From a virus: DNA of 30,911 bases. The position numbers and the translations under genes are program-made. Under the pieces are notes generated by a model. The model worked only from the letters and a program-made list of their open reading frames with translations. It ran no database searches and was not told where the DNA came from. Below are positions 1,909-23,079 of the stretch, in pieces. The stretch lies in IMG/VR virus record IMGVR_UViG_3300006802_000332, positions 1 through 30,911 of that record, one strand, 5' to 3'. How positions within the stretch are numbered: the first letter of the stretch is position 1; each line of letters starts with the position of its first letter.

Positions 1909-4523
1909 TGCCTAACACCCGCAACTACCTCCGTTCGTTCGCTGGCGGCGAGGTCAGCCCGGAGATGTTCGGGCGCATCGACGACATCCGCTATCAGACC
2001 GGCGCGGCGAAGATGCGAAACTTCATCGCGAAGCCGCAGGGTCCGGCACAGAACCGTCCCGGGTTCGCTCTGGTCAGAGAGGTGAAGGACAGCACCAAGA
2101 AGACGCGGCTGATCCCGTTCACGTTCTCGGTTGACCAGACCTACGTCATTGAACTTGGTGCAGGATACTTCAGGTTTCACTCTGACGGTGGGACATTGCT
2201 GGACGGCGCGTCACCCTATGAGGTTGTCAATACTTACACCGAATCAGAGCTGTTCGACATCAACTACGTCCAGTCAAACGATGTCCTGACGCTTGTCCAT
2301 CCCAACCACCCTCCAGCAGAGCTACGCCGCTACGACACCCTAGACTGGAGGTTTGTAGATGTCACATTTACACCATCGCTATCTGCGCCAACCAATGGAA
2401 ATGTAAGTGTAAACTTCGGCCGCAGAACTAGTATAAATGAGGTTCAGGGTGATTCGTCACAAGGTGTTGGCTTGGCGCATGTTGCGATATTTAGAACGAC
2501 GGCTCATTATCCTGAAATATATTTTTCTGTGGGCGATCCTGTTTATCTTTCAGGATTACCGGCAGCAGGTATTAGCTCCGGTTTTTATCATGTAGGCTCA
2601 AAACCGAACAACTCGGAAGTCACACTTGCTTACATTGAAACCGGCGATCCGGTTGTTGCAAACAGCACTACTGCCATTGCGGTAAACTGGACGCTTCAAT
2701 ATGCTGAAAACTCTCCAGACACCAATGTAAACTACAAAGTCACCGCTGTTGGTGATTCGGATATTGCGGAGTCTCTACCGAGCGCAGCTATACCGGCAAC
2801 AAATAACTTATTTGCTTCCGGCGCCTACAACACCATTTCTTGGGACGTAGTTGCTGGCGCAGTTCGCTACAACGTCTACAAAGAACAAAACGGTCTCTAC
2901 GGCTACATCGGTCAGACCGAGGCGCTACGGTTCATCGACGACAACATCGCGCCGGACATGGGCATCTCGCCCCCGACCTACGATGACACGCTGACCTCTG
3001 CTGGCAACTACCCTGCTTCTGTTGCCTACTTTGAGCAGCGCCGTGTCTTCGGCGGCACCGACAACGAACCGCAGAACATCTGGATGACCAAGTCGGGCAC
3101 CGAGTCCGACTTCAGCTACCAGCTTCCGATCCGCGACGCCGACCGCATCTCGTTTCAGATCGCGTCGCGTGAGGCCAACCGCGTTAAGCACATCGTTCCG
3201 CTGACCGAGCTGATCCTGCTGACGAACTCAGCAGAATGGCGCGTCACGTCGGTCAACAGCGATGCGATCACGCCGTCGTCGATCGCGGTGCGACCGCAGA
3301 GCTACATCGGTGCGTCCGGTGTGCGGCCGACGGTCGTCAACAACTCGCTTGTCTACTGCGCGGCACGCGGCGGGCACGTCCGTGAGCTTGGCTACAACGA
3401 TGCGGTGCGTGGCTTTGTCACGAACGACATCAGCCTGCGTGCTGCACACCTGTTCGACAACCTGAACATCCGCGATCAGGCTTACCAGAAGTCGCCGCTG
3501 CCGATCGTCTGGTTCGTGTCGTCCGACGGCAAACTGCTTGGGTTGACCTACGTCCCTGAGCAGCAGATCGGTGCATGGCACCAGCACGACACCCTAGATG
3601 GCACGTTTGAGTCGTGCTGCGTTGTCTCTGAAGGCGACGAAGACAGGCTCTACGTTGTAGTCAAGCGGCTGCACAAAGAAGTCGAAGGCGTCATCGAATA
3701 CAAGCGATACGTCGAACGCATGGGCATCTGGAAGTTCGAGACGATCTCGGATGCGTTCTTCGTTGACAGCGGCCTGAGCTTCGACGGCACCAACACGACC
3801 GCGACTCAGATGAAGGTCACGGGCGGCACGCTCTGGGACCCGTCTGAGGAGCTGACGCTCAACGCTACGACACCGCAGTTCGTGACTGGGCCATCGTCGA
3901 CGGACATCGGCGATGTCGTTGAGCTGGACGCGGCTGACGGCCAGATCTACCGGCTGACGATCGTGTCGGTGACGACGGACACGACCGCGCAAGCCCGCGT
4001 TGACAAGACGCTTCCTGCCGCGCTGCGCGACACCTACACCACAGCGTGGGCCTTCTGCCGCAACACGTTCTCCGGTCTTGGTCACCTGAACGGCTACACA
4101 GTGTCCATCCTTGCCGATGGCGCTCGCCACAACCCGCTCTTCGTGCAGACCGGCACGGTCACTCTTGGCCGCGCTGCTCGCAAGGTCCACATTGGTTTGC
4201 CGATCGAAGCCGACTTGCAGACGTTGCCGATGACGTTGCAGATTGACGGCTTTGGTCAGGGTCGCCATAAGAACGTCAACCGCGTCTGGCTGCGCGTGTT
4301 CCGTTCGTCTGGCCTGCTGGCTGGCCCAGATGCGTCGTCGCTTGTCCCTTACAAGCAGCGAACCAACGAAGCCTACGGCACGCCGCCACGACTGATCTCT
4401 GAGCAGATCGAAGTCGTGCTGCACCCATCTTGGGACGAGGACGGGCAAGTCTACATCCGCCAAGCCGATCCGCTGCCGCTGACGATCGCTGGTCTGACAA
4501 TCGAAGTTGCGTTGGGAGGCTAA
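1908..4523 (+). CDS. Tail tubular protein B / tail nozzle (T7 gp12-like) with inserted domains
   Basis: An 871-residue protein beginning RNYLRSFAGGEVSPEMFGR, with AAKMRNFIAKPQGPAQNRPG: the standard start of podovirus nozzle/stabilisation proteins (T7 gp12 is 794 residues). The body also has family-typical runs such as YFEQRRVFGGTDNEPQNIW and LLTNSAEWRVTS. It would form the tubular lower tail through which DNA passes. Residues ~145-305 (about bases 2341-2820) are visibly AT-richer than the rest and look like an insertion: first a small beta module with A199-H200 and VGDPVYLSGLP, then an Fn3-like segment ending ISWDVVAGAVRYNVYKEQNG. The start overlaps the previous stop by one base. The insertion is an observation; calling it surface-exposed is inference. 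Confidence 0.88.
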   Translation: MPNTRNYLRSFAGGEVSPEMFGRIDDIRYQTGAAKMRNFIAKPQGPAQNRPGFALVREVKDSTKKTRLIPFTFSVDQTYVIELGAGYFRFHSDGGTLLDGASPYEVVNTYTESELFDINYVQSNDVLTLVHPNHPPAELRRYDTLDWRFVDVTFTPSLSAPTNGNVSVNFGRRTSINEVQGDSSQGVGLAHVAIFRTTAHYPEIYFSVGDPVYLSGLPAAGISSGFYHVGSKPNNSEVTLAYIETGDPVVANSTTAIAVNWTLQYAENSPDTNVNYKVTAVGDSDIAESLPSAAIPATNNLFASGAYNTISWDVVAGAVRYNVYKEQNGLYGYIGQTEALRFIDDNIAPDMGISPPTYDDTLTSAGNYPASVAYFEQRRVFGGTDNEPQNIWMTKSGTESDFSYQLPIRDADRISFQIASREANRVKHIVPLTELILLTNSAEWRVTSVNSDAITPSSIAVRPQSYIGASGVRPTVVNNSLVYCAARGGHVRELGYNDAVRGFVTNDISLRAAHLFDNLNIRDQAYQKSPLPIVWFVSSDGKLLGLTYVPEQQIGAWHQHDTLDGTFESCCVVSEGDEDRLYVVVKRLHKEVEGVIEYKRYVERMGIWKFETISDAFFVDSGLSFDGTNTTATQMKVTGGTLWDPSEELTLNATTPQFVTGPSSTDIGDVVELDAADGQIYRLTIVSVTTDTTAQARVDKTLPAALRDTYTTAWAFCRNTFSGLGHLNGYTVSILADGARHNPLFVQTGTVTLGRAARKVHIGLPIEADLQTLPMTLQIDGFGQGRHKNVNRVWLRVFRSSGLLAGPDASSLVPYKQRTNEAYGTPPRLISEQIEVVLHPSWDEDGQVYIRQADPLPLTIAGLTIEVALGG

Positions 4524-4524
4524 C

Positions 4525-5229
4525 ATGTCTTACGGTTCCCCGCCCCCGATGATTAACTCTGGCTTGGTCTCGCCGACCGGCCAGCTTCCAGCCGGATTTA
4601 CACCAGCCGCCTCCTCGCCAGCATCTGCCTCCGGCGGTATGGGCATGGCTGGCCCGATCCTGATGATCGCTGGTGCGGTCAACCAAGCGATCGGGTCGTT
4701 CTACGCCGCCAAGAACGCGCAGATTCAACTGCGGATGCAGGAGCAGAACCTTCTGTTCCAGCAGCGCATGAGCAACATCGCTGCGCGACAGGCTGAGTTC
4801 CAAGCGCAAGGCATCATGGAGGCCGGTCAGCGGCAGATCGGTGCCTACACGATGCAGGCTGGTGCGGCCAAGTCGCAAGCCAAGACGCAGCTTGCTGCAC
4901 GCGGCATTCAGGCTGGCAAGGGTTCGGCTGCCGAGATCATGGCGACGTTTGATCTCATCAAAGAGATTGACGCCATGACGATCAACGCCAACACGGTGCG
5001 TGCGGCCGAAGCACAACGCATGGCGGCCACGCGGGCGCGTGTGCAAGGCATCATGGCCGGTGCGTCGGCAAGATCTTACGGCCTTTCTGCCGGAGCCATC
5101 AGCCCAGGTCTTAGCGGGTTCCAAAGCCTGCTTGGCAGCGCGTCGCAGATTGGGATGCAAATGCAATCCGCTGAACTGTCTTCGCAGCGCCACCACGAAA
5201 TAATGCGTGCCCTGGAGGGAACTTACTAA
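4525..5229 (+). CDS. Internal virion protein, T7 gp14-like
   Basis: A 234-residue protein. I place the start at ATG 4525, directly after the nozzle stop, with GGGAGG at 4514-4519; a few upstream in-frame codons overlap the nozzle gene and are not needed. Residues ~1-35 are Pro/Ser/Ala-rich, residues ~36-60 form a hydrophobic segment (GPILMIAGAVNQAIGSF), and the remainder is Gln/Ala-rich amphipathic helix (for example RMQEQNLLFQQRMSNIAARQ). This composition, length and position before the two larger internal proteins match T7 gp14 (196 residues), which is ejected into the host and makes the outer-membrane part of the DNA channel. The assignment rests on gene order and composition more than on residue identity. 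It ends in a TAATG overlap with the next gene. Confidence 0.75.
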   Translation: MSYGSPPPMINSGLVSPTGQLPAGFTPAASSPASASGGMGMAGPILMIAGAVNQAIGSFYAAKNAQIQLRMQEQNLLFQQRMSNIAARQAEFQAQGIMEAGQRQIGAYTMQAGAAKSQAKTQLAARGIQAGKGSAAEIMATFDLIKEIDAMTINANTVRAAEAQRMAATRARVQGIMAGASARSYGLSAGAISPGLSGFQSLLGSASQIGMQMQSAELSSQRHHEIMRALEGTY

Positions 5230-7163
5230 TGGTCAAAGTCCCCGTAGCTCCGCAGGTCCAGCCGCAGGTCCAGCAAGAGCAGGTTGCGGCACCGCAGTTC
5301 CAGGCAGCGCCCTCGCCCGGGATGCAGTCTGCCATGCAGCTTGGTCAGGACCTGATGCAGGCTGGCAAGATGGCGATCGAACTTCAGCGCGACAAGCAGG
5401 CGATGGAGTTCTGGAAGGCCAAGGAGGAGCGCCGCGAACAGATTGCTCAGGGGCGTGAAGCTGAGGCTGCGGCTAAGGAAGCGGCGCAGCTAAAGGCCAA
5501 GACGACAGACTTTATCGTAGACGAAGCGATCAACCTGCTTGGCTCGCAAGTTGGCGAGGTGGCAGACATCTTTGGCCGCACGACCGGACGCGAATCGGTT
5601 GAGCGATTTGAAGAGGCAAACTCTGCCATTCAGGGTCTTGCCCAAAACCTTCGCGACAAGCTGCAAGACGAAGATCAGATCGCGCTGTTTGACATGAAGG
5701 TTGGTCAGCGCATCGGCGTTGCTCAACGCAACATCCGCGCTCACTACAGCAAGCAGCTTGATCTAGCACAGAAGGCTGCACGCATCGGCAACCTTGAAAC
5801 ACTCGGTCGCGAAGCCGCCACCAGCAGCGACACGCAAGACTTTGTCAAGGCCGCCGCAGCCGCCGAGGCAGTCATCAACCAGATGAACACGCTGCCAAGT
5901 GGCGTGGTCAACCAAGACGTTGCCAAGCAGCAGATTCAAGCGTGGTATGGGCAGTATGTTGGTCTTGCTGCCGACAGGATGATTCGCAGCAACGATTACG
6001 CATCGGCACACACCCTTGTTGGCGCGCTTAGTAAAGGCGGCCGTCTAGAAGTCGGCGTTGCTGACAAGATGTTGTCGGTCATCGCTAGCGCCGAGGAGGC
6101 CCACAGCTCCAGGGAAGTCGCCAAGAACTTGGTCCGTGAAGGCCGCACCGGTGGCCTGACGCAGTTTGAGTCGACGACTCCTGACCCAGAGTCCAAGCCG
6201 CTGCCACGCACGTTTGACGGTAAGCCGGACTACAACGCAATTCGCAGCACTATCGACGGCGCAGACCGCCCAGACTCTTGGAAGGAACAGGCCAAAAATG
6301 TTGTCGATGGCATGGAGCGCGATCAAGTGCAGGCAGAACAGAGTGCCTACAGAGATTTGCTGCGTCAGGCGGAGTCTATTGCGTTTTCTGACAAGGCTAT
6401 CGCTGACAACAAGTCTTACTGGACTGAGATCCAGCAAGAGATCTGGTCAAAGCTGCGCCTAGAAGATCAAAATCGCCTGAAGAACATCACGGTCGTTAGC
6501 GATGAAGCCACGCTTGGCGGCCTACTTGTTAGCCTTGGCACTGTGCAGCCAGAGAACCCAAAGGCTGTGCAAGAGTTTGCTGCTAATGTTGAGCAGGAAC
6601 TAAAAGATGGCCGCATCACCAAAAAGGACGCCGACGCGCTGATTATGAGCGCGACTGAGCCGCGCAAAGCCATCGAAGCCAAGCTAGACAACGATCAGAT
6701 TACAGCTGTGTTTGCCAGTGAAGGCTTGGATGTAGACGATACACAGCGGGCCACTGCTAGGTATCGAATCTCTTCTCGCATCACCGAGATGCAGACCATG
6801 CTTGGTCGCCCGTTGTCCGCCCAAGAAAAGGAGGACGTCATTCGAGAAATGCTTAAGGTCAATTACATTAAGACCGGCGTTGTTATGGACGATGTAGAAA
6901 GATCTATGTTTGTATCTAGGCCAAGCGAATACGATCAGGTCTCTATCGGCGTGTCCGGCAAGCAGCTTGTAATGCACCGCCCGTATTATGAGGCTGCGCT
7001 TCTTGCTGCAAAAATGAACCTAGAAAAAGAAGGGCAATACGGCGTTTACCCAACGCCGCAACAGATTGTTGAAACCTACAACAGGATGATGAAGCGCAAT
7101 GCGCCGGGAGATGCCGCACGCGACCAGCACATGTTTGTGCCAGCCCTCAACGTCCCCCGATAA
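5229..7163 (+). CDS. Internal virion protein, T7 gp15-like
   Basis: A 644-residue protein (T7 gp15 is 747). The N-terminal 35 residues are Gln/Pro/Val-rich; then comes a long charged, Ala/Glu/Lys-rich helical region (ERREQIAQGREAEAAAKEAA) and a mostly helical remainder with no membrane segment. It lies between the gp14-like gene and the giant gp16-position gene, as in the T7 ejectosome cassette, and would form part of the periplasmic channel built when the virion proteins are ejected. Its start shares one base with the previous stop (TAATG), implying coupled synthesis. No catalytic motif is seen. The call is based on position, size and helical composition; direct similarity to gp15 cannot be claimed by eye. 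Confidence 0.72.
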   Translation: MVKVPVAPQVQPQVQQEQVAAPQFQAAPSPGMQSAMQLGQDLMQAGKMAIELQRDKQAMEFWKAKEERREQIAQGREAEAAAKEAAQLKAKTTDFIVDEAINLLGSQVGEVADIFGRTTGRESVERFEEANSAIQGLAQNLRDKLQDEDQIALFDMKVGQRIGVAQRNIRAHYSKQLDLAQKAARIGNLETLGREAATSSDTQDFVKAAAAAEAVINQMNTLPSGVVNQDVAKQQIQAWYGQYVGLAADRMIRSNDYASAHTLVGALSKGGRLEVGVADKMLSVIASAEEAHSSREVAKNLVREGRTGGLTQFESTTPDPESKPLPRTFDGKPDYNAIRSTIDGADRPDSWKEQAKNVVDGMERDQVQAEQSAYRDLLRQAESIAFSDKAIADNKSYWTEIQQEIWSKLRLEDQNRLKNITVVSDEATLGGLLVSLGTVQPENPKAVQEFAANVEQELKDGRITKKDADALIMSATEPRKAIEAKLDNDQITAVFASEGLDVDDTQRATARYRISSRITEMQTMLGRPLSAQEKEDVIREMLKVNYIKTGVVMDDVERSMFVSRPSEYDQVSIGVSGKQLVMHRPYYEAALLAAKMNLEKEGQYGVYPTPQQIVETYNRMMKRNAPGDAARDQHMFVPALNVPR

Positions 7164-7168
7164 ACAGC

Positions 7169-10100
7169 ATGTCAGACTTCGGCATCACGTTTTCCGATCA
7201 GCAGTCGTTTAACGACGACGTTCGCAACCGACTTGATCGGATGCGTGAGCAGCGCCTGCGCCAAGCAGTTAACTTTGGCACGCGCTACAACCCTGTTCGT
7301 ACCGGTCAGGCAGCACAGCATGGCCTGCCGTTCACGGTGTCTGATGACATCTTGGATGCTGCGCTTCAGCAGACCAAGCAGCAGAACATCTACCGGGAGG
7401 TCAACAGCTACCCGGTTTCGATGGACTTCTTTGCCGACCCAGCGTTTGCTTCGCTGGCGGCAGACGATGCCGACAACGTCGGAGCGATGGAGGGCCTGTT
7501 TAAGACCCTGCTGTCTTCCGGAGCGCAAGTAGTCAGTGGCGCTCTCAGGTTCATTGACTGGGAGCGAACCAAGACAGAAGAGTGGCAGACGCAGATGTGG
7601 ATGAGCTTGCGTGAGCAGGCCATCGCCAACATGACGCCAGATGAGCGTCGTCGGTTTATTCAAGCGCAGCAGCAACTCCCGGCAGAGTTTCGCCCGATCG
7701 AAGAGCCGATGACCCAAAAGGTCATGCGTGGCTGGGAAGAGATGGCGCAGGGCCTTCAGGCCGACGCCAGGACTTTCTGGGGCCAGACAATCGTAGGCGA
7801 GTCGGCGTTCTCCGCTATCCAGTCCATTACGCAGATGCTGGCGCTTGCTCCGCTTGGCCCGGCGGCGGTCATGGCTGGCTTTGGATCTACCGAGTTTGGT
7901 TCGGCCATGCAGGCTGGCGAAGCGGCTGGCTTGTCGCCGCAGGAAGCATTTAAGACTGCTGTGGCAGGAGCGTTTGCAGAAATCGCTCTCGGCTTCACGC
8001 CGGTCAAGTCACTGCTCGCTGGAGCCGCTGGCAACACGCTGAGGCAGACGCTCGTCAACACAGCCAAGGCGGAGCTTGCTACTGAGATCCCAACCACGCT
8101 GATCCAGAGCTTTACGCAGTTCATGGAGTTCGAGCGTCCGAACACGTCCGCCGACTTCGTTGAATACGCGCAGAGACTGCCCCGAGAGGTCGCTGTCACG
8201 GCGCTGTCCACTTTGTTTTCAACCGGCGTCACCGCTCCGATCATCTATCGTTCTCAGGAAGCGGTTAACAAGCAAGCGTCCGACATCGACGTAGCGCAGC
8301 GCAACTCTGATGTTCTTGGTCAAATCCAAGAAACGATGTCGCGCTCTAAGGCTGCCGCTAACGGTCCGGCTTTGTTTCAAAAGCTGGTTGCCGCGCAAGC
8401 CAAGGCTTACGAGGTTCGAGAGATTCGCGTCGATCGGCAAATCGTTGAAGATTCGCTGGAAGAGCTGGGCGGGATTGAAGCCGTCCGCAAGGCGCTGCCA
8501 GAGGTTGCCTCCAAGCTGGAGGCTCAGGACCCGGCAGATGGAACCGAGCTGTTCATTCGCCCGGAGCAGTGGGCCGAAGCCGTTCGCCTTAATCCTAAGT
8601 TTGACGAGGTGCTGAGGCAGCACGTTCGCATCAACGATCAGGAGATGACTGCTGCCGAGGCGCTGGTCGCCGAGAAGAACAAGGAAAAGTTCCTAGAGGA
8701 GCTGAACCGCCTGATCGAGGACGAGGCGGAGATTCTTGCCGAGGTTGAGTCGGACCGTCAGTCGATTGAAGACGACATCGTTGAGCGCGTTAGCGGTGTC
8801 CGGCCGCAGCCTGCGGTGGTCGAGACCGAGGCAGAGCTGCCAGAGGTCGCAGAGCAGCCCCAGGAGGCACCAGAGGGCGCTGAGGTCGCGCAGGCCATCC
8901 AAGAAGTGATAGCCGCTCAGGAGCCAGCAGAGGTTGCCGTAGAGCCTGCAACGGAACAGCAACCGTTTGATGCTTGGTTTGCCAACTCACAGGCTGTGGA
9001 TGTGAAGGGCAAGCCGCTGGAGCTGGCAATTCGACCGCTGCCCGATGGAGAAGGCTCGTTCTACTCGGAGGCACCGGCTGGCACCGGCAACACTTTGGTG
9101 TCGATTGCCAACCCGCTGATTCTGACCGGTGACAAAGCCAATCGGTTTATCAAGGACGCCAAGTTCCGTCAGCGGACGATGCAGAAGGCGCGTGACCTTC
9201 AAAAGGACGGCGTCATCGCGCATGGCAAGACACAGGTTGATGATCGCACGGTTCGCGACTCTATCTACGCCCCGCTAGATGAAGCACAGATCCGGACCAA
9301 CGGTCGGCCTGATCCGTCTGCGCTAGAGGCCCCGCGTGTCACGCTGCCTCCTGCCGATCAGCCCAAGCCAAGGCGCATCGTCAAAACCGAGGCGGACCTT
9401 GCTGACGTAAAGACTGGTGATGAGGTAGACATTCTTGGCTATCACTTCACTTCTGCCCTAGAGCAGAATTTGCCAAAAAACGCAACGGATCTTTATCCGG
9501 GCGGCCCAGACCCATCGGTGGTCAGCGATACAGGTTGGTTTGGGACCGCCGTTTATTTCAGCATTGGCGACGCGCAGTATGAAGACGAAAGAAATCTGCA
9601 CGCCACAATACGCGCAAAAAACATTTTGGTGTCAAACGACATCCCTGTCGTTGACATGAAAAAATTTGGAGGAGAGAACCTTGTTTATAACAGATGGGGG
9701 GACTTTAGCCTCGCGAAAGCGAGAGTCATTTGGGAAAGTGGCCTTGTTTCTGACCTTGAATATGCAGGGGCAATCAAGAAGTATTTTGGCAACGATAATG
9801 ATGCCTATGACAAAATTCAGGATGAGTTCAATTATGACGCGGTAATACACAGAAATGAGTCGCTTGCGGCCATGTCCGAGCAGTCTCAGGTTGGTGTTTA
9901 CGATTTGGATATTATTTCTAACAGGGACTTTCAAGAAGACACGCTGCAAGGCCGCGAAGATGCTGGCCTAGAGAGTCCGCAGACCAGCGCCACGGACGCT
10001 GCCTACATGGCCGCCATCGAAGCTGGCGACATGGAGACGGCGCAGCGGCTAGTTCTAGATGCAGCAAAAGCATCTGGTTTTTCGGAACAGGTATACGAGC

Positions 10101-13100
10101 ACGCAACCGATCAAGAGTTTGATGTTTTTGACATCAACGCTCCGCGTGCTAATGCCCCAAAGGGAGGGAGTCCGGCTGGGCTGTATTTTTCTTCCGGGAC
10201 AACCAAATACACCGGGAAGCGCGTTATCCGTGCAGTTCTTAACTACAGCAACCCATACAATTTGGCTGGAGGCAATGTCATAAGTGATAATGCCGTAGAA
10301 GTATATAAGCAGGCTTTGCGAGACGAGGGTCTTTCTCCAGACGAATACTGGCTAAACGAAAAAGCTGAGAAGTTTCAGAAGACCGGTCGTATGCCGTTTA
10401 CCGGCTTGTCTCGCCAGGGTCAGACAAGCGTCATCAAGGCCGCTGGCTACGACAGCTTGATAGATGGCCGTGATGTTGCTGTTTTCAGCTCAGAGCAGGT
10501 CAAGGTTGTAGACCCCATCACCCGCGACGCCGACGGCAACATCATCCCGCTGTCACAGCGGTTTGATGTCACGCAGCCGAGCATCTTGTATGCACCAGAA
10601 GTTGCCACATCAAAAATCAAGGGAGCACTGTCTAGTGTTTCTGAATCAATCAAAAACTTTGTCGCCAAGATAAGCGGGCGCGACAAAACCCCAAACATTG
10701 ACAAAGAGCACGCCAAGGCTGCAAAGCAAGGAGATATTGAGGCTGGAGCCAAGCTCACAGAAGCCGCCGCTTTTGCTGCCGCACCCTATGTTTTCCCAGC
10801 AAACCACGGTTTGCGCGAAGGCATTTTGCGTGAAGCAACATTCGATATGTCAATGCTTGGCGTTAACACTAGGGCTGCCAGTGCGGCCAAGGGAGTGTTT
10901 GCCAGCAAGGGCAGGTCTACCGCTTCTTTCTATGCCGTTCCGCCAGCGAAAAAGTCTAGAACTCCAATCAATGAGCGCGATGTAAACGCACAACTGTCCA
11001 ATGTGTATGAGAAACTAATTAAGCCAATTAAAACCACTACCCGCGTTGGCTATGGCGCAGGATCGCAACTAGTTGAGGGGATTAGTGGATACACAACGAT
11101 TTTTTCTGGCTACAGCTTTGGGCAGAAGCCAATTCCGTTGCCGCGATTGCTTTCTGAGTATGCAGAATACAAATCACGCAAACGAGACAGCTTTAGTGCT
11201 TGGTCTCAGTCTCAAACGCCAGAAACAGTTGTCCGTTATCTGGAAGAAGAACGAGCACTACTTGTAGACAACGCCACGCGCACACGCAATTTTGCGGTGT
11301 TGCGTGACGCAGCCAAGGGTCTGCAAAAGATCATCAACCAAATCAATGTCGATTATGATCTGAAGCCTAGCGATGTAGTTGCTACAGGCGAGGGCGGGAT
11401 TCTCAATCTGTATGTTCTTATGAACAACCCGCTAATCCATGACCAAAAAGGCAAGCGCGGAAGAGCGATAAACTTTTCAAGGCTAATAGATATCGCCAAA
11501 GCTAGAGGGCATGACGGCCTTGTTATTCAAAACACGTTTGACGGTAGCACGGTCGATGACGTTTACGTTGCGTTTGATTCAGGACAGCTAAAGTCTGCTG
11601 ATCCGTTTACATACGACAAAAGCGGCAAGCTGATTCCGCTGTCGCAGCGATTTGACGTCACGCGACCAAGCATTTTGTATGCCCCAGAACAGCAACCGAT
11701 TGGCCCTGTCACCAACGACCAGCTAAAGCAGCAAGCTGTCATCGCTTCGTCGATGTTCAGCAACCTTGCTGTGGAACTTGGCATTAAGCCAAAACAGTTC
11801 TGGGAAAGATACGGCCCGCAGTTCCGGGTTGATGAGCAGGCGCGTGGCGGCTCCCCGGGCGCGTATCAGCCAAAAAGCATGACTGTCGTGCTTCAGTCTG
11901 ACCAGACTGCTGACACGCTGCTGCACGAACTTACGCACCACTACGTTCACATTCTGTCGGTCATCGCCGCACAGGACACGGCGCTAGAGGACACGCAGAC
12001 TGCTGCGGGCATTATCCGTGCCCGTGAGGTGTTTGAAGACCTTGTCTCCGAGTTTGACACCGACGGGTTCATCGCGGCCGAGGGATACAACACAGGTCAG
12101 GCGTGGACACGCCTTACCGCTGAACAGCAGGCGCGCATCCACGAACGCATCGCCTACCAGTTTGGTGCCTACATCGCCGAAGATGCTGCGCCAACCGAGA
12201 AGGTTCGCGGCGCTTTCCGCAAGATGTCGGACTGGCTGCGGAAGATCTACGGCAAGACGCTTCAGAAGCTGGACGAGGCTTACTTTAGACGGTTTAACGA
12301 GCACCTTCCGGCGCTGACCGATGATGCCCGCCGCATCTTCGATCGCATGATCGGATCTGCTCTTGCTGTTGAGCAGGCAAAGGCTGCTGAGGGCTCTGTG
12401 CCCATTTTCCAGTCACAGGAGGAGTCCGGCCTGACCGATGAGCAGTGGGCCCGGCTGCAAGCAGATCAAGAGGCATCGGACCAAGAAGCCATTGAACAGA
12501 TGATGGCTAGGTTCATGCGCGATGAGAAGTGGGGCATCAGCAGCCGCAACCGCTTCATCCGCAAGATGCAGCAGCAGGTGCGTAAGAAGCGCGCCGAGGC
12601 GCGTGACCGCGTGCAGGCCGAAGTAGAGCGTCGCCCAGTCTATCAGGCCATTCGGTTCTTTCGCACTGGAGAGCGACTTACCGATCAGGATGCGTTTGCC
12701 AAGATCGAAGGCAAGCACCGCCTGGATGTCGCCGCGATCAAGAAGCTGTTCCCAAAGGCTGAGGACCGCAAGAAGCTGCGTGGTGGCCGCTACGGGATGA
12801 CGATGAAGGAGGGCATCGACCCTGACCTTGCCGCATCCATGTTTGGCTACGAAAGCGCCGGGGCCATGATTCAAGACATCATCGACGCCAAGCCTATTAA
12901 GCAGGTTGTCGATGAGGAGGCTGAGGCGCTCCTGCGAAAGGAGAACGCAGACCTGTTCGACCAGAACAAGATTCGCGAAGCGGCCATCGAATCTATCCAG
13001 AACGAACGCACGTCTCGGTTTATCGCGGCAGAGCTTCGGTTCATGTCTGCCGTAGTCACGCCGGTTCGCATCCTGATTGCGGCTGCCCGCGCCGCAGCCA

Positions 13101-15724
13101 CGCAGCGCATCGACGGGATGACGATCAGAGAGCTGCGCCCGGATCGCTACGCCAACCAGTCAAAGCGTGCATCCAAGGATGCGCTGAAGGCAAGGCGTGC
13201 TGGCAACAATGCCGAAGCCCTGAACGCCAAGCGTCGCCAGCTTGGTTTGGATCAGATGGCGTTTGTTGGCCGGGCAACCAAGAAGAGGATTGAGCAGCAC
13301 CGCAAGTATCTTCGCAGGCTTGCCAAGCCAGCCAAGAGAAAGCGTGTGGGCGCAGATCACGGTGATGTGATTGACATCGTTCTGTCGCGCATTGCTGATG
13401 GCAACAATCCCTTGGTTGTGGTGCAGCCTGGGCAGGTTTTCCAGAAGGGTCTTAGCTGGCATTCTCAGCTCATGGCCGACCAAGGCAGCCCAAGCCTGCT
13501 GGACGCGGAAACCAGCCGTCAGCCGGTTGGGTGGACTGGCGAAGAGCCCGCCACCCTTGCCGATGAGATCATGTCGATGCCGCTCGGCGTTGACATCAAC
13601 GACATGACGGTTGAGCAGCTAGAGGACATCGTCAAAGCTGTCAAGGAGCTTGAACACGTCGGCAAGCAGCTCACTGAGGGCAACGCCGCTTCTAGAAAGC
13701 AGAAACTTGCTGACATTGACGAGCAGCTTGCAGATGCCGTTATGCAAAGCATCGGGCGCAAGCACTCTCGCAAGACAGAAGATTCGTGGATGCAGGACCC
13801 CAAGCGCATCTACGAAAAGATGAGCGTCCAGCACTACACCATGGCTGGCAAGTCCTACGTCATGGACGGGGGTAAGTATGGGGTGTGGTTTGACTACGTA
13901 GTCAACGTCGCCAGTCAGATCGAGGACGCTGAGCTGAAGATGCGTGCCGATCTGACGCGACAGATGAGCGATATTCTTAAGCCCGTCACTGTTCGTGGCT
14001 ACAGAACCAAGCGTCGCATCGACCGGCTAGATGGTGACTACAGCCTGATGGAGCTGTTCGTCATGGCGTGCAACCTCGGCAACGCTCAGAACGCGCAGCG
14101 CCTGTTGAACAACGGGTATGGCAAGTGGACCATCGACGATGTTCGCATGGCGATTGAGGAGAACCTGAATGAGCAGCAGATTCTTGCTGTTCAGAAGACT
14201 TGGGATGTCTTCAGCTCGATCAAGCCGTTGATCGCAAAGCTAGAGCGTGAGGATCGCGGTGTTGAACCTACTTGGGTTCAGCCCAAGCCCGTAGCGTTCA
14301 CGGTTGCTGGCAAGACCGTTCATTTGTCCGGTGGCTACTTCCCGATCAGCTACGACGGGCAGGCATCTCGTCTTGGTGCTTACACGGAGCAAAGCAAGGA
14401 AGCGGAGACCCGTGATGTGAAGTCTGCCGTAGTCGCCACAACGCACCGCGCCTTCCTTAAAAACCGAGCAAGGGAGGTCCAAGATGCACCGCTGCTTCTA
14501 TCTCTGAGTGGAGCATTCGCGTCGCTAGAGGAGATCGTCCACGACATCCACTGGCGTCAATTCGGCAAGGATCTCAACCGGCTGCTTGGCAAGAACAGCA
14601 AGACATCCCGGGCCATCCAAGAGAAGTATGGCACGGACTGGCTGAGCGACATTCTGAACTGGCGCAACCGCGTTGTGTCTGGCGACATGTCTGGAACCAG
14701 GACGGCCCTAGACAACGTGATGTCTTGGACTGGACGGTTCACGTCGCAGGCGTCGCTTCTCTACAACATCGGCTCGCTTGCCATTCAGTGGACCGGCATC
14801 TTTTCTATCGGAGCAGCCACCGGCTACAGCAACGCGATGTATGGCGCGTCTCGCCTGTTCAACTGGCGCGATGCCAAGACGCAGATGATGAGGCTGTCGC
14901 CGCAGATGGAGCTGCGCTACGCGACTCGCTTGCGTGAGTTCTCTGATCTGATGAGTCAGATCCGGGGCAAGATCACGCTAAAGCAGAAGATGGAGATCCA
15001 CGGATACTGGCTGCTTCAGCAGGCACAGTCAGTAGCGGACATCGCAGCTTGGCACGCCGGGTTCAACAAGGCTTTGTCTGAGGGCAAGTCAGAACGATCT
15101 GCGGCCGACATCGCGTATCAAGTGGTCCTTGACACGCAGTCGTCCGGTCGCCTGCAAGACTTGTCAACCGTTGAGGCCGGAACGGTCGGACGCATCTTCT
15201 CTGTGTTCTACCGTCCGATGAACGCGCAGCTCAACGTCTGGATGCGTAATGCTGGATACAAGAGCCGCGCCCGCATGATCGCCGACTTCTCGGCCATCTT
15301 TATGATTATGCCTTATGTGCAGTTCCTGCTTAAGGATGCCATCAAACCAGACGAGGGCGAGGACGAAGAGTTCTGGACCGCTAAGAATCAGGCCGCGCTT
15401 CTTGGCGCTGAGACCATGAAGGCGTTCCTTGGTTCATTTGTCTACGTCAGAGAGTTCTCCAACTCTATCGGAGCACTGTTTGGGCAAGAGGTCTTTAGCT
15501 ACTCCGGCCCAACGCGGCTGCGTTTGATTAAGGACTTTGAGCGCCTAATCACGCAGATCGCACAGGGCGAGCTTGACAAGTCGCTGTTCAAGTCGGTGTC
15601 CACCATTGGTGGCGCAGCTGGATTCCCGTCCGCGACCGCAAACCGAATCATCGACGGTGTTCATGCAGTGATGAATGACAAGGATGTTCCGCCTTGGGCC
15701 ATCATCACCGGCACCGATCGGTAA
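7169..15724 (+). CDS. Giant polyvalent internal virion protein with ART-like modules and a zincin motif (T7 gp16 position)
   Basis: A 2851-residue protein, over twice T7 gp16 (1318). It starts five bases after the gp15-like stop with only a weak ribosome site. From the N-terminus: helical region; hydrophobic segments ~215-380; charged coiled-coil-like part with an acidic Glu/Val linker (~380-600); then at least three and perhaps four segments resembling ADP-ribosyltransferase modules of phage polyvalent proteins (about 600-715, 755-925, 970-1144, 1180-1507; motifs include FDAWFANSQAVD, GYHFT, AGLYFSS, GYDSLIDGRDVAVF, RGHDGLVIQN). Next comes a zinc-metallopeptidase HExxH motif, HELTH at 1586-1590, followed by long helical regions and a C-terminal hydrophobic part (~2700-2790). 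It is probably packaged and ejected with the DNA, protecting or modifying host targets; that role is inferred. No gp16-like transglycosylase domain was recognised. Confidence 0.85.
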   Translation: MSDFGITFSDQQSFNDDVRNRLDRMREQRLRQAVNFGTRYNPVRTGQAAQHGLPFTVSDDILDAALQQTKQQNIYREVNSYPVSMDFFADPAFASLAADDADNVGAMEGLFKTLLSSGAQVVSGALRFIDWERTKTEEWQTQMWMSLREQAIANMTPDERRRFIQAQQQLPAEFRPIEEPMTQKVMRGWEEMAQGLQADARTFWGQTIVGESAFSAIQSITQMLALAPLGPAAVMAGFGSTEFGSAMQAGEAAGLSPQEAFKTAVAGAFAEIALGFTPVKSLLAGAAGNTLRQTLVNTAKAELATEIPTTLIQSFTQFMEFERPNTSADFVEYAQRLPREVAVTALSTLFSTGVTAPIIYRSQEAVNKQASDIDVAQRNSDVLGQIQETMSRSKAAANGPALFQKLVAAQAKAYEVREIRVDRQIVEDSLEELGGIEAVRKALPEVASKLEAQDPADGTELFIRPEQWAEAVRLNPKFDEVLRQHVRINDQEMTAAEALVAEKNKEKFLEELNRLIEDEAEILAEVESDRQSIEDDIVERVSGVRPQPAVVETEAELPEVAEQPQEAPEGAEVAQAIQEVIAAQEPAEVAVEPATEQQPFDAWFANSQAVDVKGKPLELAIRPLPDGEGSFYSEAPAGTGNTLVSIANPLILTGDKANRFIKDAKFRQRTMQKARDLQKDGVIAHGKTQVDDRTVRDSIYAPLDEAQIRTNGRPDPSALEAPRVTLPPADQPKPRRIVKTEADLADVKTGDEVDILGYHFTSALEQNLPKNATDLYPGGPDPSVVSDTGWFGTAVYFSIGDAQYEDERNLHATIRAKNILVSNDIPVVDMKKFGGENLVYNRWGDFSLAKARVIWESGLVSDLEYAGAIKKYFGNDNDAYDKIQDEFNYDAVIHRNESLAAMSEQSQVGVYDLDIISNRDFQEDTLQGREDAGLESPQTSATDAAYMAAIEAGDMETAQRLVLDAAKASGFSEQVYEHATDQEFDVFDINAPRANAPKGGSPAGLYFSSGTTKYTGKRVIRAVLNYSNPYNLAGGNVISDNAVEVYKQALRDEGLSPDEYWLNEKAEKFQKTGRMPFTGLSRQGQTSVIKAAGYDSLIDGRDVAVFSSEQVKVVDPITRDADGNIIPLSQRFDVTQPSILYAPEVATSKIKGALSSVSESIKNFVAKISGRDKTPNIDKEHAKAAKQGDIEAGAKLTEAAAFAAAPYVFPANHGLREGILREATFDMSMLGVNTRAASAAKGVFASKGRSTASFYAVPPAKKSRTPINERDVNAQLSNVYEKLIKPIKTTTRVGYGAGSQLVEGISGYTTIFSGYSFGQKPIPLPRLLSEYAEYKSRKRDSFSAWSQSQTPETVVRYLEEERALLVDNATRTRNFAVLRDAAKGLQKIINQINVDYDLKPSDVVATGEGGILNLYVLMNNPLIHDQKGKRGRAINFSRLIDIAKARGHDGLVIQNTFDGSTVDDVYVAFDSGQLKSADPFTYDKSGKLIPLSQRFDVTRPSILYAPEQQPIGPVTNDQLKQQAVIASSMFSNLAVELGIKPKQFWERYGPQFRVDEQARGGSPGAYQPKSMTVVLQSDQTADTLLHELTHHYVHILSVIAAQDTALEDTQTAAGIIRAREVFEDLVSEFDTDGFIAAEGYNTGQAWTRLTAEQQARIHERIAYQFGAYIAEDAAPTEKVRGAFRKMSDWLRKIYGKTLQKLDEAYFRRFNEHLPALTDDARRIFDRMIGSALAVEQAKAAEGSVPIFQSQEESGLTDEQWARLQADQEASDQEAIEQMMARFMRDEKWGISSRNRFIRKMQQQVRKKRAEARDRVQAEVERRPVYQAIRFFRTGERLTDQDAFAKIEGKHRLDVAAIKKLFPKAEDRKKLRGGRYGMTMKEGIDPDLAASMFGYESAGAMIQDIIDAKPIKQVVDEEAEALLRKENADLFDQNKIREAAIESIQNERTSRFIAAELRFMSAVVTPVRILIAAARAAATQRIDGMTIRELRPDRYANQSKRASKDALKARRAGNNAEALNAKRRQLGLDQMAFVGRATKKRIEQHRKYLRRLAKPAKRKRVGADHGDVIDIVLSRIADGNNPLVVVQPGQVFQKGLSWHSQLMADQGSPSLLDAETSRQPVGWTGEEPATLADEIMSMPLGVDINDMTVEQLEDIVKAVKELEHVGKQLTEGNAASRKQKLADIDEQLADAVMQSIGRKHSRKTEDSWMQDPKRIYEKMSVQHYTMAGKSYVMDGGKYGVWFDYVVNVASQIEDAELKMRADLTRQMSDILKPVTVRGYRTKRRIDRLDGDYSLMELFVMACNLGNAQNAQRLLNNGYGKWTIDDVRMAIEENLNEQQILAVQKTWDVFSSIKPLIAKLEREDRGVEPTWVQPKPVAFTVAGKTVHLSGGYFPISYDGQASRLGAYTEQSKEAETRDVKSAVVATTHRAFLKNRAREVQDAPLLLSLSGAFASLEEIVHDIHWRQFGKDLNRLLGKNSKTSRAIQEKYGTDWLSDILNWRNRVVSGDMSGTRTALDNVMSWTGRFTSQASLLYNIGSLAIQWTGIFSIGAATGYSNAMYGASRLFNWRDAKTQMMRLSPQMELRYATRLREFSDLMSQIRGKITLKQKMEIHGYWLLQQAQSVADIAAWHAGFNKALSEGKSERSAADIAYQVVLDTQSSGRLQDLSTVEAGTVGRIFSVFYRPMNAQLNVWMRNAGYKSRARMIADFSAIFMIMPYVQFLLKDAIKPDEGEDEEFWTAKNQAALLGAETMKAFLGSFVYVREFSNSIGALFGQEVFSYSGPTRLRLIKDFERLITQIAQGELDKSLFKSVSTIGGAAGFPSATANRIIDGVHAVMNDKDVPPWAIITGTDR
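10511..10600 (+). repeat. 30-residue direct repeat inside polyvalent protein, copy 1
   Basis: This in-frame segment encodes DP-(I)-T-x-D-x-x-G-x-I-PLSQRFDV-T-x-PSILYAPE, at the end of an ART-like module. A second copy lies 1089 bases downstream (11600-11689) and matches at 23 of 30 residues while many third codon positions differ, so it is an old protein-level duplication rather than a recent DNA duplication. Confidence 0.85.
11600..11689 (+). repeat. 30-residue direct repeat inside polyvalent protein, copy 2
   Basis: Second copy of the module-end segment described at 10511-10600, sharing PLSQRFDV and PSILYAPE. It closes the last ART-like module and directly precedes the HExxH zincin region, so these repeats mark module borders. 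Confidence 0.85.
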
Positions 15725-15756: not shown

Positions 15757-18700
15757 ATGACCATCAGCAGCGCAGACAGGAAGAGCCAGCTCTACATCGG
15801 CTCTGGGACCACTGGTCCATTCGCCTTCCCCTTCAAAGTCTTCGCTGCCAGCGAGGTCAAGGTCACTACGTCTGTCATCGCGACTGGCGTAGAGACCGTG
15901 CTCAGTGCGGGTGAATACACGGTCAACCTTAACGCCGACCAGGACGGCAACCCGGGTGGTTCAATCACACTCGCCACGGCCCTGCCGACGACCAAGAACC
16001 TCATCATTACGTCGGCGGTGCCGCTCACGCAGCCGGTCAACATCAACAACCAAGACGGGTTCTTCGCTGAGGTCGTTGAGGACGCTTTGGATAGGAGCGT
16101 CATTCAGGTTCAGCAGATGCAGACTGAGCTGGACCGTGCATTCAAGGTGCCCCTGACCAGCGGCTACACGGACCCGAACGAGTTCATCACCGACCTGCTG
16201 AACACGGACGCTGCGGCGCAGACGGCGCGTGTTGGGGCTGAGGCGGCGGAGACGGCCGCTGTGGCAGCGCAGACTGCGGCCGAGTCCGCAAGGGATGGCG
16301 CGTTGACTGCGGAGACCAACGCAGAAGGCTACGCAGCCACCGCCGTTGGCGTCGCGACCCGCATGTTTACCAGCTACTCGGCTGCCGTAGCTGCTGGACT
16401 GAGCAACGACGATCTGTTCCGCGTCCAGATTGGTCAGCGGATCTTCGTCTACAAGTTTGTCACCCCTGGCAACTACGGCGTGCTTCAGAGTGTCATTCCT
16501 CTGAACTACCCGGAGGCCACGTTTGCCAGCGCATCGTCTTCGGGCACCTCTGTTTCAGGGGTGTCCATACCTGCCGGTGCTCTCATCGACGTGTCTGGTG
16601 TAGACGCTCTCTACAGCTACAACCAGATTCGCAACCGCGCTGTAGATGGCAACCCTAGCCTTAACCTGCTTGGGGTTCAGGACGCATCCAAGCAGCCGCT
16701 GCGGAGCTACATTTCAGACGCCGACCCTAACGATACCGGTGTCTACGATTTCAACGTTGACAACGAACTTGTTGTCAGCCACCTCCCGGCCACGGGAACA
16801 GACACCTACACGGTAGCTTTCCCCGACATCTATGTGCCGCCTGGACGGTGGACGTTTGCGTTTGATGCCAAAGGCATCGGACAAAGCTACCAATTCCGCG
16901 CCTCGGCTGATGGTGGCGCGACCTACACGCCTACGCAAACAGCCACGACTACGTTTCAGACGTTTGCCATCACGTTTGACAACACCACGGAACAGGCCGA
17001 CACATTTCAGTTCTTCCGTGAAGTCGCCGGAACAACGTCGCTGTCTGCGATTGCCTACAAGAACTTTCGCATTGTTCCTGGCACCTCCGCCACCTACACC
17101 GAACCAGCCAATCGTCACGGCTGGCATAAGCGCCCGTGGTCGCTGGAAGACAGATCGCTGGTGCCAAGCAACGAGCCGCGTGGATCAATCGCTGTTGTTG
17201 CATCCAACAGCAGCGGCATGTTGCTTACGTCCGCTGGTCACGGGTTCAGCAACAACGACACTGTGCTGCTGTCCGGTGGAACCTATGCGCTGGCTGGGGT
17301 TGTTCACTACGTTCGTGATGCAACGGCAGACACGTTCAAGGTTTCGCTTTCGCTCGGAGGGGCGGCGCTGCCTTATAACGCAGCTAGCGTTCCAACAACT
17401 GCTAGCTTTGGTCCCATCGTCGACAATTTGCACTTCCAGCTTCCTCTTGCGGAGACCAAGCAGCTTAACGAATACACGGTCAGCTTTGCGATTAAACCGG
17501 CTGACAACGCTTACGCCAACGCCTTCAGTCTGACGTCGCCGTCTACGGCTGCGGACAAGTTCGGCATGTTGCTGGTCCCAAGCACCGATGCTCTTTCGTT
17601 GTCTTCTGGCTTCATCAGCTTCGACCACCTTGGCAGCACCGACGACACGGTGCAGCTTCTTGGTGTCGCGATCCCGAAGGAGAAGTTCAGCATCCTGACG
17701 GTTGTTGCGCCAGCAGATGCAGGCGTCAACAGCGACCCGGCACGGGTCTACATCAACGGGATTCTGCTGCGCGAAGTTGAAGAGCAGATCCGTGTCAAAA
17801 CGTCTTCGCGTGACGCAGATGGTGCGAGCCTTCGCTTCAACTTTGGAAAGGCTCACAGGTTTGTTGAAGACGAGCCGGTGAAGCTGCAAAAGGACCCCGG
17901 GGCAGTGTTCCCGGTGGGTGTTGACGACGCGACGACCTACTACGTTCGGCCGCCAAGCAGCAACTTCCAAGAGACCCTGCTGCTGTCCACGACGGCAGGC
18001 GGCACGCCGATCGCCTTTACCAATCCTGGCTCCGGCAACATCTTCGTTAATAGCCAGCCGCGCCCAGTTGGCACTGCTCCGATCTCGCTGAACTGTCTTT
18101 CGCTCTTTGGTTTCAAGACCATTGAACCGTCGACCTTCAACCTGAAAGGGGGCTTCGCCAACTTTGTCTTGTATGACAAGGCTCTGACTGAATCTGAAGT
18201 GCAAAAGCTCATCACGGTTCAGAAGCAGCGGGTCGCCGCACACTACGAACCGATGCCAGCCCTTGGTTCGGTGCTTCTCACGGAAGGTGACTCGATCACC
18301 TTCGGCGTTGGTGTAGAGAACCCGACGCAGACGTTCCGCTACCGCTTGTTCTACGGTCTGGACTTTGATCCCAAGACCGTATCCCCAGCGGCTTTCGGCA
18401 AGTCGGACAACGACACGTTGATGACGACCTCCGATAACAGCGGCAACCTGCGTTTTACGGCAGTCGGCCACGGCTTCCCGCAGGGTGTCTCTGTTGTCGT
18501 CACCGCATCAACGTTCCCGGACAACATCACGGCGGCAACAACTTACTACGTCAACGTCATCAACGATGACAACATCCAGCTCACGACTGATGAGACCATG
18601 CTGAACACGGTTCAGGCCGGTGCCGAGCTGGGCGCTGACGTTCATGTGCTGCTTGCTGACAGCATTGGAAACGTGCGCGAAGCCATGACCGTTAACCTGC

Positions 18701-19509
18701 CCGCTCACGGCTACGACCAGACAGGCGTATCGTTTACAACGACCAACACCTTGCCAAGTGGCTTGGTTTCCAACTCGGTTTACTTTGCCCAAAAGCAAGA
18801 TGACAACAACTTCTTCATTTCGCAAAAGGGGTTTGTCAGCAACTCTTTCCCGCTGATTCTTGGTCAAGCGGATTACGGAGCCATCGGCGATGTGACGATT
18901 CGCCAAGATCTTTCGACGCTAGACAACGCAGCGACGAAGCTCAACGAAAAGACGTTTGCTGTAAGCGGCGCAACTATCGCTGATACCATCAGTCGAAAGG
19001 GTGAGCTGCTTGAAATGATTGGCCGGGTGGTCGCTGATGGTAGTCGCCCGATCGTGACCTACATGGCTGGCGTCAACGACATGATCGTTGGTGGCTCACC
19101 GAACGAGTTTGGTGTCCCAACTGCGCCGCTGACCGAGGCCGAGCAGACCGCGATCATCAACAGCCTGAAGGACTACTGGACCGAGATCCGCAACGCTGGG
19201 GCAAAGCTGATCGTTGGCACCATCACGGCGGTCAACTTTGATCCAACCCAGACCAGCGAACCTAACGGTCCGTTTATCTACGCGACTGACACGGTCCGCA
19301 ACTCCTTTAACGCCAAGATCCGCGCCGCATCTAGTTATTACGATGCACTGGCTGACTTCGCGTCTTACGATTTGCTAAACATTTGGCAGACATCAAATCC
19401 AGTAATAGCGCCAAACTCCTACTTCTCTGACAGTGTCCACATCAGTCTGCGTGGGCACCTTCTGATGTCCAACATCCTCTCGCCTCTGGTGGACCGATTT
19501 CGCCTCTGA
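15757..19509 (+). CDS. Multidomain tail fibre/spike: T7 gp17-type N-terminus and C-terminal SGNH hydrolase
   Basis: A 1250-residue protein. Residues ~1-125 match the T7 tail-fibre anchoring domain (YIGSGTTGPFAFPFKVF … LDRSVIQVQQMQTELDRAFKV). Residues ~150-205 are an Ala/Thr coiled coil. A CBM-like beta-sandwich follows (~280-445), then a LamG/concanavalin-like region (~550-815). The C-terminal part carries an SGNH/GDSL hydrolase: block I GDSITFG with Ser846, a block II candidate SGAT, block III GVND with Asn1107, and block V DSVH with Asp1225 and His1228. Four small modules with an (A/G)HG(F/Y)-like start occur near His495, 700, 905 and 984; the second seems to split the LamG region and the last two lie between SGNH blocks I and II. 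Likely role: binding and deacetylating or de-esterifying host surface glycan. The enzyme substrate is inferred. Confidence 0.88.
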   Translation: MTISSADRKSQLYIGSGTTGPFAFPFKVFAASEVKVTTSVIATGVETVLSAGEYTVNLNADQDGNPGGSITLATALPTTKNLIITSAVPLTQPVNINNQDGFFAEVVEDALDRSVIQVQQMQTELDRAFKVPLTSGYTDPNEFITDLLNTDAAAQTARVGAEAAETAAVAAQTAAESARDGALTAETNAEGYAATAVGVATRMFTSYSAAVAAGLSNDDLFRVQIGQRIFVYKFVTPGNYGVLQSVIPLNYPEATFASASSSGTSVSGVSIPAGALIDVSGVDALYSYNQIRNRAVDGNPSLNLLGVQDASKQPLRSYISDADPNDTGVYDFNVDNELVVSHLPATGTDTYTVAFPDIYVPPGRWTFAFDAKGIGQSYQFRASADGGATYTPTQTATTTFQTFAITFDNTTEQADTFQFFREVAGTTSLSAIAYKNFRIVPGTSATYTEPANRHGWHKRPWSLEDRSLVPSNEPRGSIAVVASNSSGMLLTSAGHGFSNNDTVLLSGGTYALAGVVHYVRDATADTFKVSLSLGGAALPYNAASVPTTASFGPIVDNLHFQLPLAETKQLNEYTVSFAIKPADNAYANAFSLTSPSTAADKFGMLLVPSTDALSLSSGFISFDHLGSTDDTVQLLGVAIPKEKFSILTVVAPADAGVNSDPARVYINGILLREVEEQIRVKTSSRDADGASLRFNFGKAHRFVEDEPVKLQKDPGAVFPVGVDDATTYYVRPPSSNFQETLLLSTTAGGTPIAFTNPGSGNIFVNSQPRPVGTAPISLNCLSLFGFKTIEPSTFNLKGGFANFVLYDKALTESEVQKLITVQKQRVAAHYEPMPALGSVLLTEGDSITFGVGVENPTQTFRYRLFYGLDFDPKTVSPAAFGKSDNDTLMTTSDNSGNLRFTAVGHGFPQGVSVVVTASTFPDNITAATTYYVNVINDDNIQLTTDETMLNTVQAGAELGADVHVLLADSIGNVREAMTVNLPAHGYDQTGVSFTTTNTLPSGLVSNSVYFAQKQDDNNFFISQKGFVSNSFPLILGQADYGAIGDVTIRQDLSTLDNAATKLNEKTFAVSGATIADTISRKGELLEMIGRVVADGSRPIVTYMAGVNDMIVGGSPNEFGVPTAPLTEAEQTAIINSLKDYWTEIRNAGAKLIVGTITAVNFDPTQTSEPNGPFIYATDTVRNSFNAKIRAASSYYDALADFASYDLLNIWQTSNPVIAPNSYFSDSVHISLRGHLLMSNILSPLVDRFRL

Positions 19510-20386: not shown

Positions 20387-20617
20387 TGACATCGACAGCC
20401 CTTCGCGGGCGTCGTTGCGTTGTTCAAGCAGAAGCCTGACTGCTGGCGAGATGTCCGCGTAAACGTCCGCAGGCACCGGCACATCGTGCGCGTCGGCTAA
20501 GACGGCGTGGACACGCACCAAGATGCCGCGCAGCTTCTGGAGGTCACTGACGGCCAGCAGCAAGGCTTGGTGCATGTCTTGGTCTGCCACGTCTAGGTAT
20601 TTACTGACAAGGGTCAT
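20384..20617 (-). CDS. Small helical protein of unknown function
   Basis: A 77-residue protein, the last gene of the leftward operon. It is almost entirely predicted helix (SDLQKLRGILVRVHAVLADA; ISPAVRLLLEQRND) with no membrane segment, Cys cluster or catalytic motif. Its ATG overlaps the stop of the methyltransferase gene (ATGA at 20614-20617), which makes translational coupling likely and is the main reason to accept it. I do not recognise the family. It ends within the T-tract of the convergent terminator, so the two operons are packed without a gap. Confidence 0.6.
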   Translation of the reverse strand: MTLVSKYLDVADQDMHQALLLAVSDLQKLRGILVRVHAVLADAHDVPVPADVYADISPAVRLLLEQRNDAREGLSMS

Positions 20618-23076: not shown

Positions 23077-23079
23077 GTC

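Follow-up and report, generated by a model that had tools for sequence, protein, structure and literature searches.

Genomic setting of the gene

The window (the whole stretch of DNA analysed here) is a virus fragment of 30,911 bases. One giant gene occupies positions 7169..15724 (+) as a single uninterrupted open reading frame, started by ATG, of 2851 codons for 2851 amino acids, just as an earlier note on this DNA had described it. The gene order that the same note had proposed (adaptor, nozzle, gp14-like, gp15-like, giant gene, fibre) was confirmed by PHROG profiles together with position: the adaptor lies at 1240-1908 (PHROG 394), the nozzle at 1908-4523 (PHROG 376), a gp14-like internal virion protein at 4507..5229 (+; PHROG 418), a protein of 644 amino acids in the gp15 slot at 5229..7163 (+), and a fibre protein of 1250 amino acids, assigned by PHROG profiles, at 15757-19509. 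The 644-residue protein matches no Pfam or PHROG family and has no recognisable muralytic domain; it is tentatively labelled gp15-like from its position and a weak similarity. The giant gene follows gp14- and gp15-like genes and precedes the fibre, i.e., it stands in the position of T7 gp16, and it lies among virion genes, as polyvalent genes do.

Several neighbouring features may be recorded here. The frame at 3-980, truncated by the start of the window, matches the BPP-1 cement protein Bbp16 in its C-terminal part (aa 184-305) and is more than twice as long as Bbp16. The fibre protein has a GDSL-type lipase/esterase domain at its C-terminal end. A phage recombination set, which might promote exchanges in the giant gene, is found at 22255-24021 (-), 24142-24932 (+) and 20614-21348 (-); it comprises RecT, a YqaJ nuclease, RusA, SSB and a C5 DNA methylase.

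Relatives of the giant protein

A PHROG profile search places the protein in PHROG 9880 (E 6e-190), a family of unknown function, and tblastn relates it to Bbp10 of Bordetella phage BPP-1 (E 9e-129), with homology spanning the C-terminal ~1290 amino acids. Judged by its sequence, the giant protein is a distant homologue of Bbp10, and the whole gene (7169..15724, +) is assigned to the Bbp10/PHROG 9880 family. Among annotated phages, 41 records match by tblastn, every one at less than 60% identity; the closest are the uncultured podovirus ctEw122, BPP-1 (Bbp10) and Caulobacter phages, and others are to phages of Xanthomonas, Vibrio, Pseudomonas and cyanobacteria. In the records read, the gene always lies behind genes for internal virion, gp14- or gp15-slot proteins, i.e., in the third ejection position, and in most of them fibre or tail genes come next. 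In IMG/VR the relatives number several hundred, two overlapping scans having confirmed 403 and 371 candidates, and bacterial genomes, when scanned, yielded 25 loci, mainly in Proteobacteria and foremost in Betaproteobacteria. Searches for relative loci with the full protein or with its second ART module (module C, see below) as query returned nothing, and those with alignments of closer relatives succeeded; profile and sequence searches of PDB sequences with the giant protein gave chance-level matches only. Virion proteomics for members of the family was not found in the literature, the paper on the BPP-1 head (PMC3863775) having identified only its two capsid bands. Although Limnohabitans phage DC33 (L007) has the virion module of a tailed phage, its record is placed in Inoviridae, which is probably an error of taxonomy. 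In L131 and L071 the C-terminal part of the giant gene is broken, leaving two frames (a frameshift or an insertion).

Two conserved arms and a variable slot

An all-against-all comparison of the family divides the protein into three parts: a conserved region from aa 1 to about 545 (the N-arm, aa 1-545, 7169..8803, +), a non-conserved middle (the variable payload slot, aa 546-1556, 8804..11836, +), and a second conserved region (the C-arm, aa 1557-2851, 11837..15721, +). Both arms are present in 86/86 complete, non-redundant IMG/VR members, a set that comprises the best-scoring members and hence is no random sample of the family. In these relatives the N-arm measures ~560-700 amino acids and the C-arm, counted from the HExxH motif to the end, ~1250 (quartiles 1230-1316), whereas the slot ranges from 24 to 2286 amino acids (quartiles 247, 684, 1066); the slot lengths are approximate, the slot being taken to start where the BLAST matches to an N-arm stop. 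In L148, L130, L065 and others, the C-arm is about 100 amino acids above the median, with a BLAST match to BPP-1 from about residue 312, and may contain an inserted domain.

The N-arm of the window protein is recognised by blastp in BPP-1 (E 5e-9), ctEw122 (6e-6) and BL94 (2e-8). It contains an LPD22 domain (aa 45-114, 7301-7510, +), which scores 30.8 bits in the Pfam scan against a cut-off of 28.6, i.e., an LPD-type domain of the kind found in polyvalent proteins. The arms persist in relatives whose slot is nearly empty (24-80 amino acids). Since they are kept in 86/86 relatives despite such slots, the job of the arms would be separate from that of the payload.

Contents of the slot

The slot of the window protein is predicted, with support from profiles, to hold two ADP-ribosyltransferase (ART) modules, each bounded by a leader and a trailer. 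Module B (9995..10588, +) consists of a leader (aa 943-968), the ART and a trailer (aa 1111-1140). Its region (aa 943-1140) reaches 42.0 bits against ART-PolyVal (PF18760; cut-off 31.2 bits, E 2e-10) when the slot is scanned alone, and 28.9 bits, which is under the cut-off, when the whole protein is scanned; the assignment is also based on profile comparison. Module C (10703..11677, +), assigned by profile comparison, has a degenerate leader at about aa 1179-1204, the ART and a trailer at aa 1474-1503; compared with an alignment of the ART modules of the family, it (aa ~1179-1503) gives an hhalign probability of 99.7% and retains the His of H-Y-[DE], the structure model being of low confidence. 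Two further stretches had been taken by eye for ARTs, at aa 590-735 (8936..9373, +; hhalign P 0.1%) and aa 745-940 (9401..9988, +; P below 1%); neither is confirmed as an ART by these values, and for the latter, an orphan, no homologue was found by any search, that for relative loci included. Of the several ART-like segments that the earlier note had mentioned, it is therefore modules B and C that stand. Its assignment to the polyvalent proteins was about right as to class, with two ARTs supported and with the exchangeable nature of the slot overlooked.

Across the family, a Pfam scan of 73 non-redundant slots found ART-PolyVal in 31/73 and DUF7178 in 11/73. Several slots carry nuclease-type domains (PBECR1/3/5 and MuF-C), and one case each was found of zeta toxin, RelA/SpoT, GNAT, SAM lyase, RadC and GP88. 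The named phages also differ by Pfam in what they carry: PBECR1 in BPP-1, ART in ctEw122, BL94 and DC33, and LPD23 in AF.

Replacement of the slot as a block

In several pairs of relatives the arms are almost identical and the slots are different. For instance, the DNA of L106 and L107 is 94-97% identical up to the slot, has nothing detectable in common across it, and returns to 97.8% identity 89 nt before the HExxH codons. A like pattern is seen in the DNA of L155/L106, L109/L110, L035/L041 and L065/L064, and in the pairs compared the right border of the divergence lies each time about 60-100 nt upstream of HExxH. Slots replaced as a block are thus flanked by arms that are 94-98% identical in DNA, and such sharp borders between near-identical arms imply recombinational replacement of the slot rather than drift. 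The isolates BPP-1, BL94, CP2 and AF likewise differ in the slot. The fibre region just downstream of the giant gene is a second site of abrupt divergence in L105, L106, L107 and L155 (seen in DNA for three of the four), so that slot and fibre are the two variable places.

The modules themselves have near-constant ends. In many ART modules a leader of the type DADYxAAVERGDMxTAQRMVDEAA opens the module and a trailer of the type IKSADPVTYDExGNVVPLSRRFDITSP closes it. The pair occurs in 16/86 relatives and in the window protein, two more relatives having a single weak match. Between proteins, the median identity is 24% for module interiors, 65% for leaders and 68% for trailers. L116 and L106 share one module interior at 97% identity, although the identity of their C-arms is 67% and that of their N-arms 49%, and in L122 a leader is directly joined to a trailer, i.e., the module is empty. 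Similar leader/trailer modules are weakly present outside the family. RecT and the YqaJ-type nuclease of the window phage form a recombination pair that could aid slot exchange.

The HExxH region

The HELTH motif that the earlier note had pointed out lies at aa 1586-1590 (11924..11938, +) and is a zincin-type HExxH shared by the whole family: it is kept in 8/8 named relatives and in every complete relative that covers the region. Downstream of it, Glu 1659 (12143-12145, +) is invariant in 9/9 sequences and is a possible third ligand of the zinc motif. In the AlphaFold model of ART module C plus the zincin region, which has low confidence overall (pLDDT 51) and confirms neither fold, the zincin region reaches a local pLDDT of 70-79, with no match in the PDB. 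As to unrelated enzymes in one polypeptide, the profiles support the ART modules; the second activity would be a putative zincin, marked by the conserved HExxH motif.

The C-arm and gp16

The C-arm was modelled over aa 1652-2851 from 88 sequences; the model (pLDDT 79) is nearly all helical, and Foldseek found no match for it in the PDB at E below 0.001. In a second look with VIA, the core ejection proteins of PhiM1 and T7 come second and sixth among 421 chains, with Z of 6.1 and 5.5, respectively, values under 8 being attainable by mere helical resemblance. Both proteins cover one common part of the model (aa 2204-2597, 13778..14959, +), and their alignments are the longest among the VIA matches shown.

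Sequence profiles point in the same direction. Against a T7-type gp16 profile built from seven sequences, the C-arm of the family scores 39.9 in hhalign (E 0.0025), within a block typified by GGYYPIKYD; in the window protein the block, containing GGYFPISYD (aa 2329-2437, 14153..14479, +), is aligned with the KGTYVPHVYD block of T7 gp16. Against PhiM1-type gp16 the score is 33.2 over 264 columns, in an alignment that reaches the C-terminus (aa 2495-2815, 14651..15613, +). Sixty column-shuffled controls stayed at or below 23.5 and reversed ones at or below 22.5, with maxima of 23.5 for the T7 type and 21.6 for the PhiM1 type. With E values of 0.0025-0.014 and probabilities of 3-12%, the similarity falls short of the usual thresholds; PhiM1-type against T7-type gp16, the positive control of the pipeline, gives a probability of 97.7%. 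Thus, the comparison with T7 gp16 that the earlier note had recommended yielded a weak resemblance that exceeds its controls (39.9 versus at most 23.5) but at low probability, and homology of the C-arm to T7/PhiM1 gp16 is probable, if unproven. In BFVD many proteins with the fold of the C-arm carry annotations as polyvalent, ART, nuclease or MuF-C; most of the matches are phage proteins that either have a polyvalent annotation or are unnamed.

The observation in the earlier note that a gp16-type transglycosylase is missing extends to the family: SLT and M23 domains were found neither in the window protein nor in the giant proteins of the relatives (0/86). In the protein upstream, in the gp15 position, they were recognised in 27 of the 79 relatives that could be read (SLT-like in 23/79, M23-like in 4/79). 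The window phage has no recognised muralytic domain in either its gp15- or its gp16-position protein. A conserved hydrophobic, transmembrane-like segment of the C-arm (aa 2703-2721, 15275..15331, +) lies about 148 residues from the C-terminus, a distance that is constant across the family.

Proposed function and alternatives

Given the anatomy of the protein, its conservation, the block exchange of the slot, the domain families in it and the constant leaders and trailers, all of them established on sequence, we consider it probable that the giant protein serves BPP-1-like short-tailed phages as their third ejection protein, in the gp16 position, and that it consists of a chassis of two arms that carries an exchangeable effector bay. 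The protein would be packed in the head alongside the gp14- and gp15-like proteins and be ejected ahead of the DNA. The arms, one of which has the conserved hydrophobic segment, would help to form or anchor a channel at the inner membrane, and the soluble slot would emerge into the cytoplasm, where its ARTs (in relatives nucleases, zeta toxin and others) may modify targets of the host or work against its defence. The putative zincin adjoining the slot may free the payload by cutting, an idea that follows PMC5512222, in which release by a neighbouring zincin-type domain was suggested for polyvalent proteins. New payloads would be gained through recombination, for which the conserved arms as well as the leaders and trailers of the modules would provide the sites.

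The most serious alternative is a packaged polyvalent effector only, i.e., a protein that is borne in the head and injected, that has no part in a DNA channel, and whose arms are signals for packaging and delivery. Every domain type fits the published polyvalent class (PMC5512222), the BFVD matches are largely to that class or to unnamed phage proteins, and the gp16 signal of the C-arm is weak. However, a mere signal would hardly call for a C-arm of ~1250 amino acids, with its conserved hydrophobic segment and gp16-like block, the arms remain when there is almost nothing to deliver, and the gene occupies the third ejection position behind gp14-/gp15-like genes in every record read; we regard this alternative as unlikely, though by some way the likeliest of the rivals. 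The fusion of effector delivery with an ejection channel, which the earlier note had proposed, fares accordingly: the arms (in 86/86, even around a near-empty slot) and the effector families in the slot speak for it, and its C-arm part has a controlled resemblance to gp16 that falls below the usual significance.

Payloads that act on the side of the phage or in the periplasm (in packaging, head maturation or passage of the envelope), with the zincin as an element of maturation or encapsidation, would accord with the report that the HExxH region of the N4 vRNAP is needed for encapsidation (PMC5512222). Yet the NAD-dependent ARTs, RNases, zeta toxin and RelA/SpoT of the slots require cytoplasmic substrates, which makes such sites of action improbable. 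It might also be supposed that the slot is a disordered linker in neutral drift, or its variation an artefact of assembly, as slots are the least conserved part, some are tiny, and many of the contigs are metagenomic. This has been largely refuted and we give it hardly any weight: the slots carry recognised enzyme families, their borders are sharp in phages 94-98% identical in DNA on either side, one module is found again, 97% identical, between divergent arms, and the isolates BPP-1, BL94, CP2 and AF show equal differences.

If the chassis-and-bay reading is true, the machine that threads the DNA also delivers interchangeable enzymes before any phage gene is expressed, and the swapping of effectors parallels the tip exchange of polymorphic toxins. 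The constant arms would be a sequence handle to hundreds of phage effectors, many of them without a known family, which probably serve host takeover or bear on anti-phage defence. The reading also provides a concrete test for the role of the giant, unannotated proteins of the Bbp10 type.

Comparison with known systems

No description of a two-armed architecture with a slot was found in the open-access literature. The nearest counterpart is Bbp10 (BPP-1, Rauchvirus, PHROG 9880), which has the same gene position and the same HExxH and is about 30% identical to the window protein over the whole C-arm, with homology in the N-arm as well. Its slot has ~200 amino acids with a PBECR1 nuclease, whereas that of the window protein has ~1000 with ARTs, and Bbp11, encoded upstream in BPP-1, has an SLT domain that is missing from the upstream protein of the window. 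T7 gp16 and the PhiM1 core protein share with the window protein the third ejection position and resemble its C-arm weakly in profile and fold. Compared with T7 gp16, the window protein is twice the size and lacks SLT, and its additional parts are the N-arm, the effector slot and the zincin motif.

The vRNAP of phage N4 (gp50) is ejected as a gp16 analogue and is laid out as an N-terminal domain, an RNAP payload, an HExxH domain (C1) and a large helical domain (C2) (PMC12633501). No swapping of its payload has been seen, whereas the slot of the window family is swapped. It has no sequence similarity to the family, its C-terminal domain was rejected as a sequence homologue with hhalign scores at control level, its appearance in the Foldseek search of the C-arm against the PDB (E 2.3) is not evidence, and the window protein has no Pfam or PHROG match to a single-subunit RNA polymerase domain. 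Against the PhiM1-type gp16 profile N4 scores 40.8, which falls to 27.9 with a combined gp16 profile. As the sequence tests do not connect the N4 vRNAP with the family of the window protein, the two have, on present evidence, only their layout in common. A jumbo phage protein of ~3600 amino acids (L179, Enterobacter phage SonariX, 249 kb) is 21% identical to the C-terminal domain of N4 vRNAP. We suggest tentatively, as something rather less probable than the reading of the window protein itself, that in many podoviruses the gp16-position protein is a general cargo bay, in which a conserved channel chassis has its middle refitted time and again with different effectors by recombination; the N4 vRNAP would be one special cargo of this plan.

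Polyvalent proteins (Iyer et al. 2017, PMC5512222) resemble the window protein in having LPD22, ARTs and a zincin-type motif, in being encoded among virion genes and in being presumed to be injected. That paper reported an N4-like vRNAP fused to an ART and raised cassette recombination for one kinase locus; a search of its text for Bordetella, BPP-1, a two-armed ejection chassis and slot exchange found none of them. The known class to which the giant protein would belong is that of the polyvalent, injected phage proteins, to which it adds a chassis and an exchangeable bay rather than a new category.
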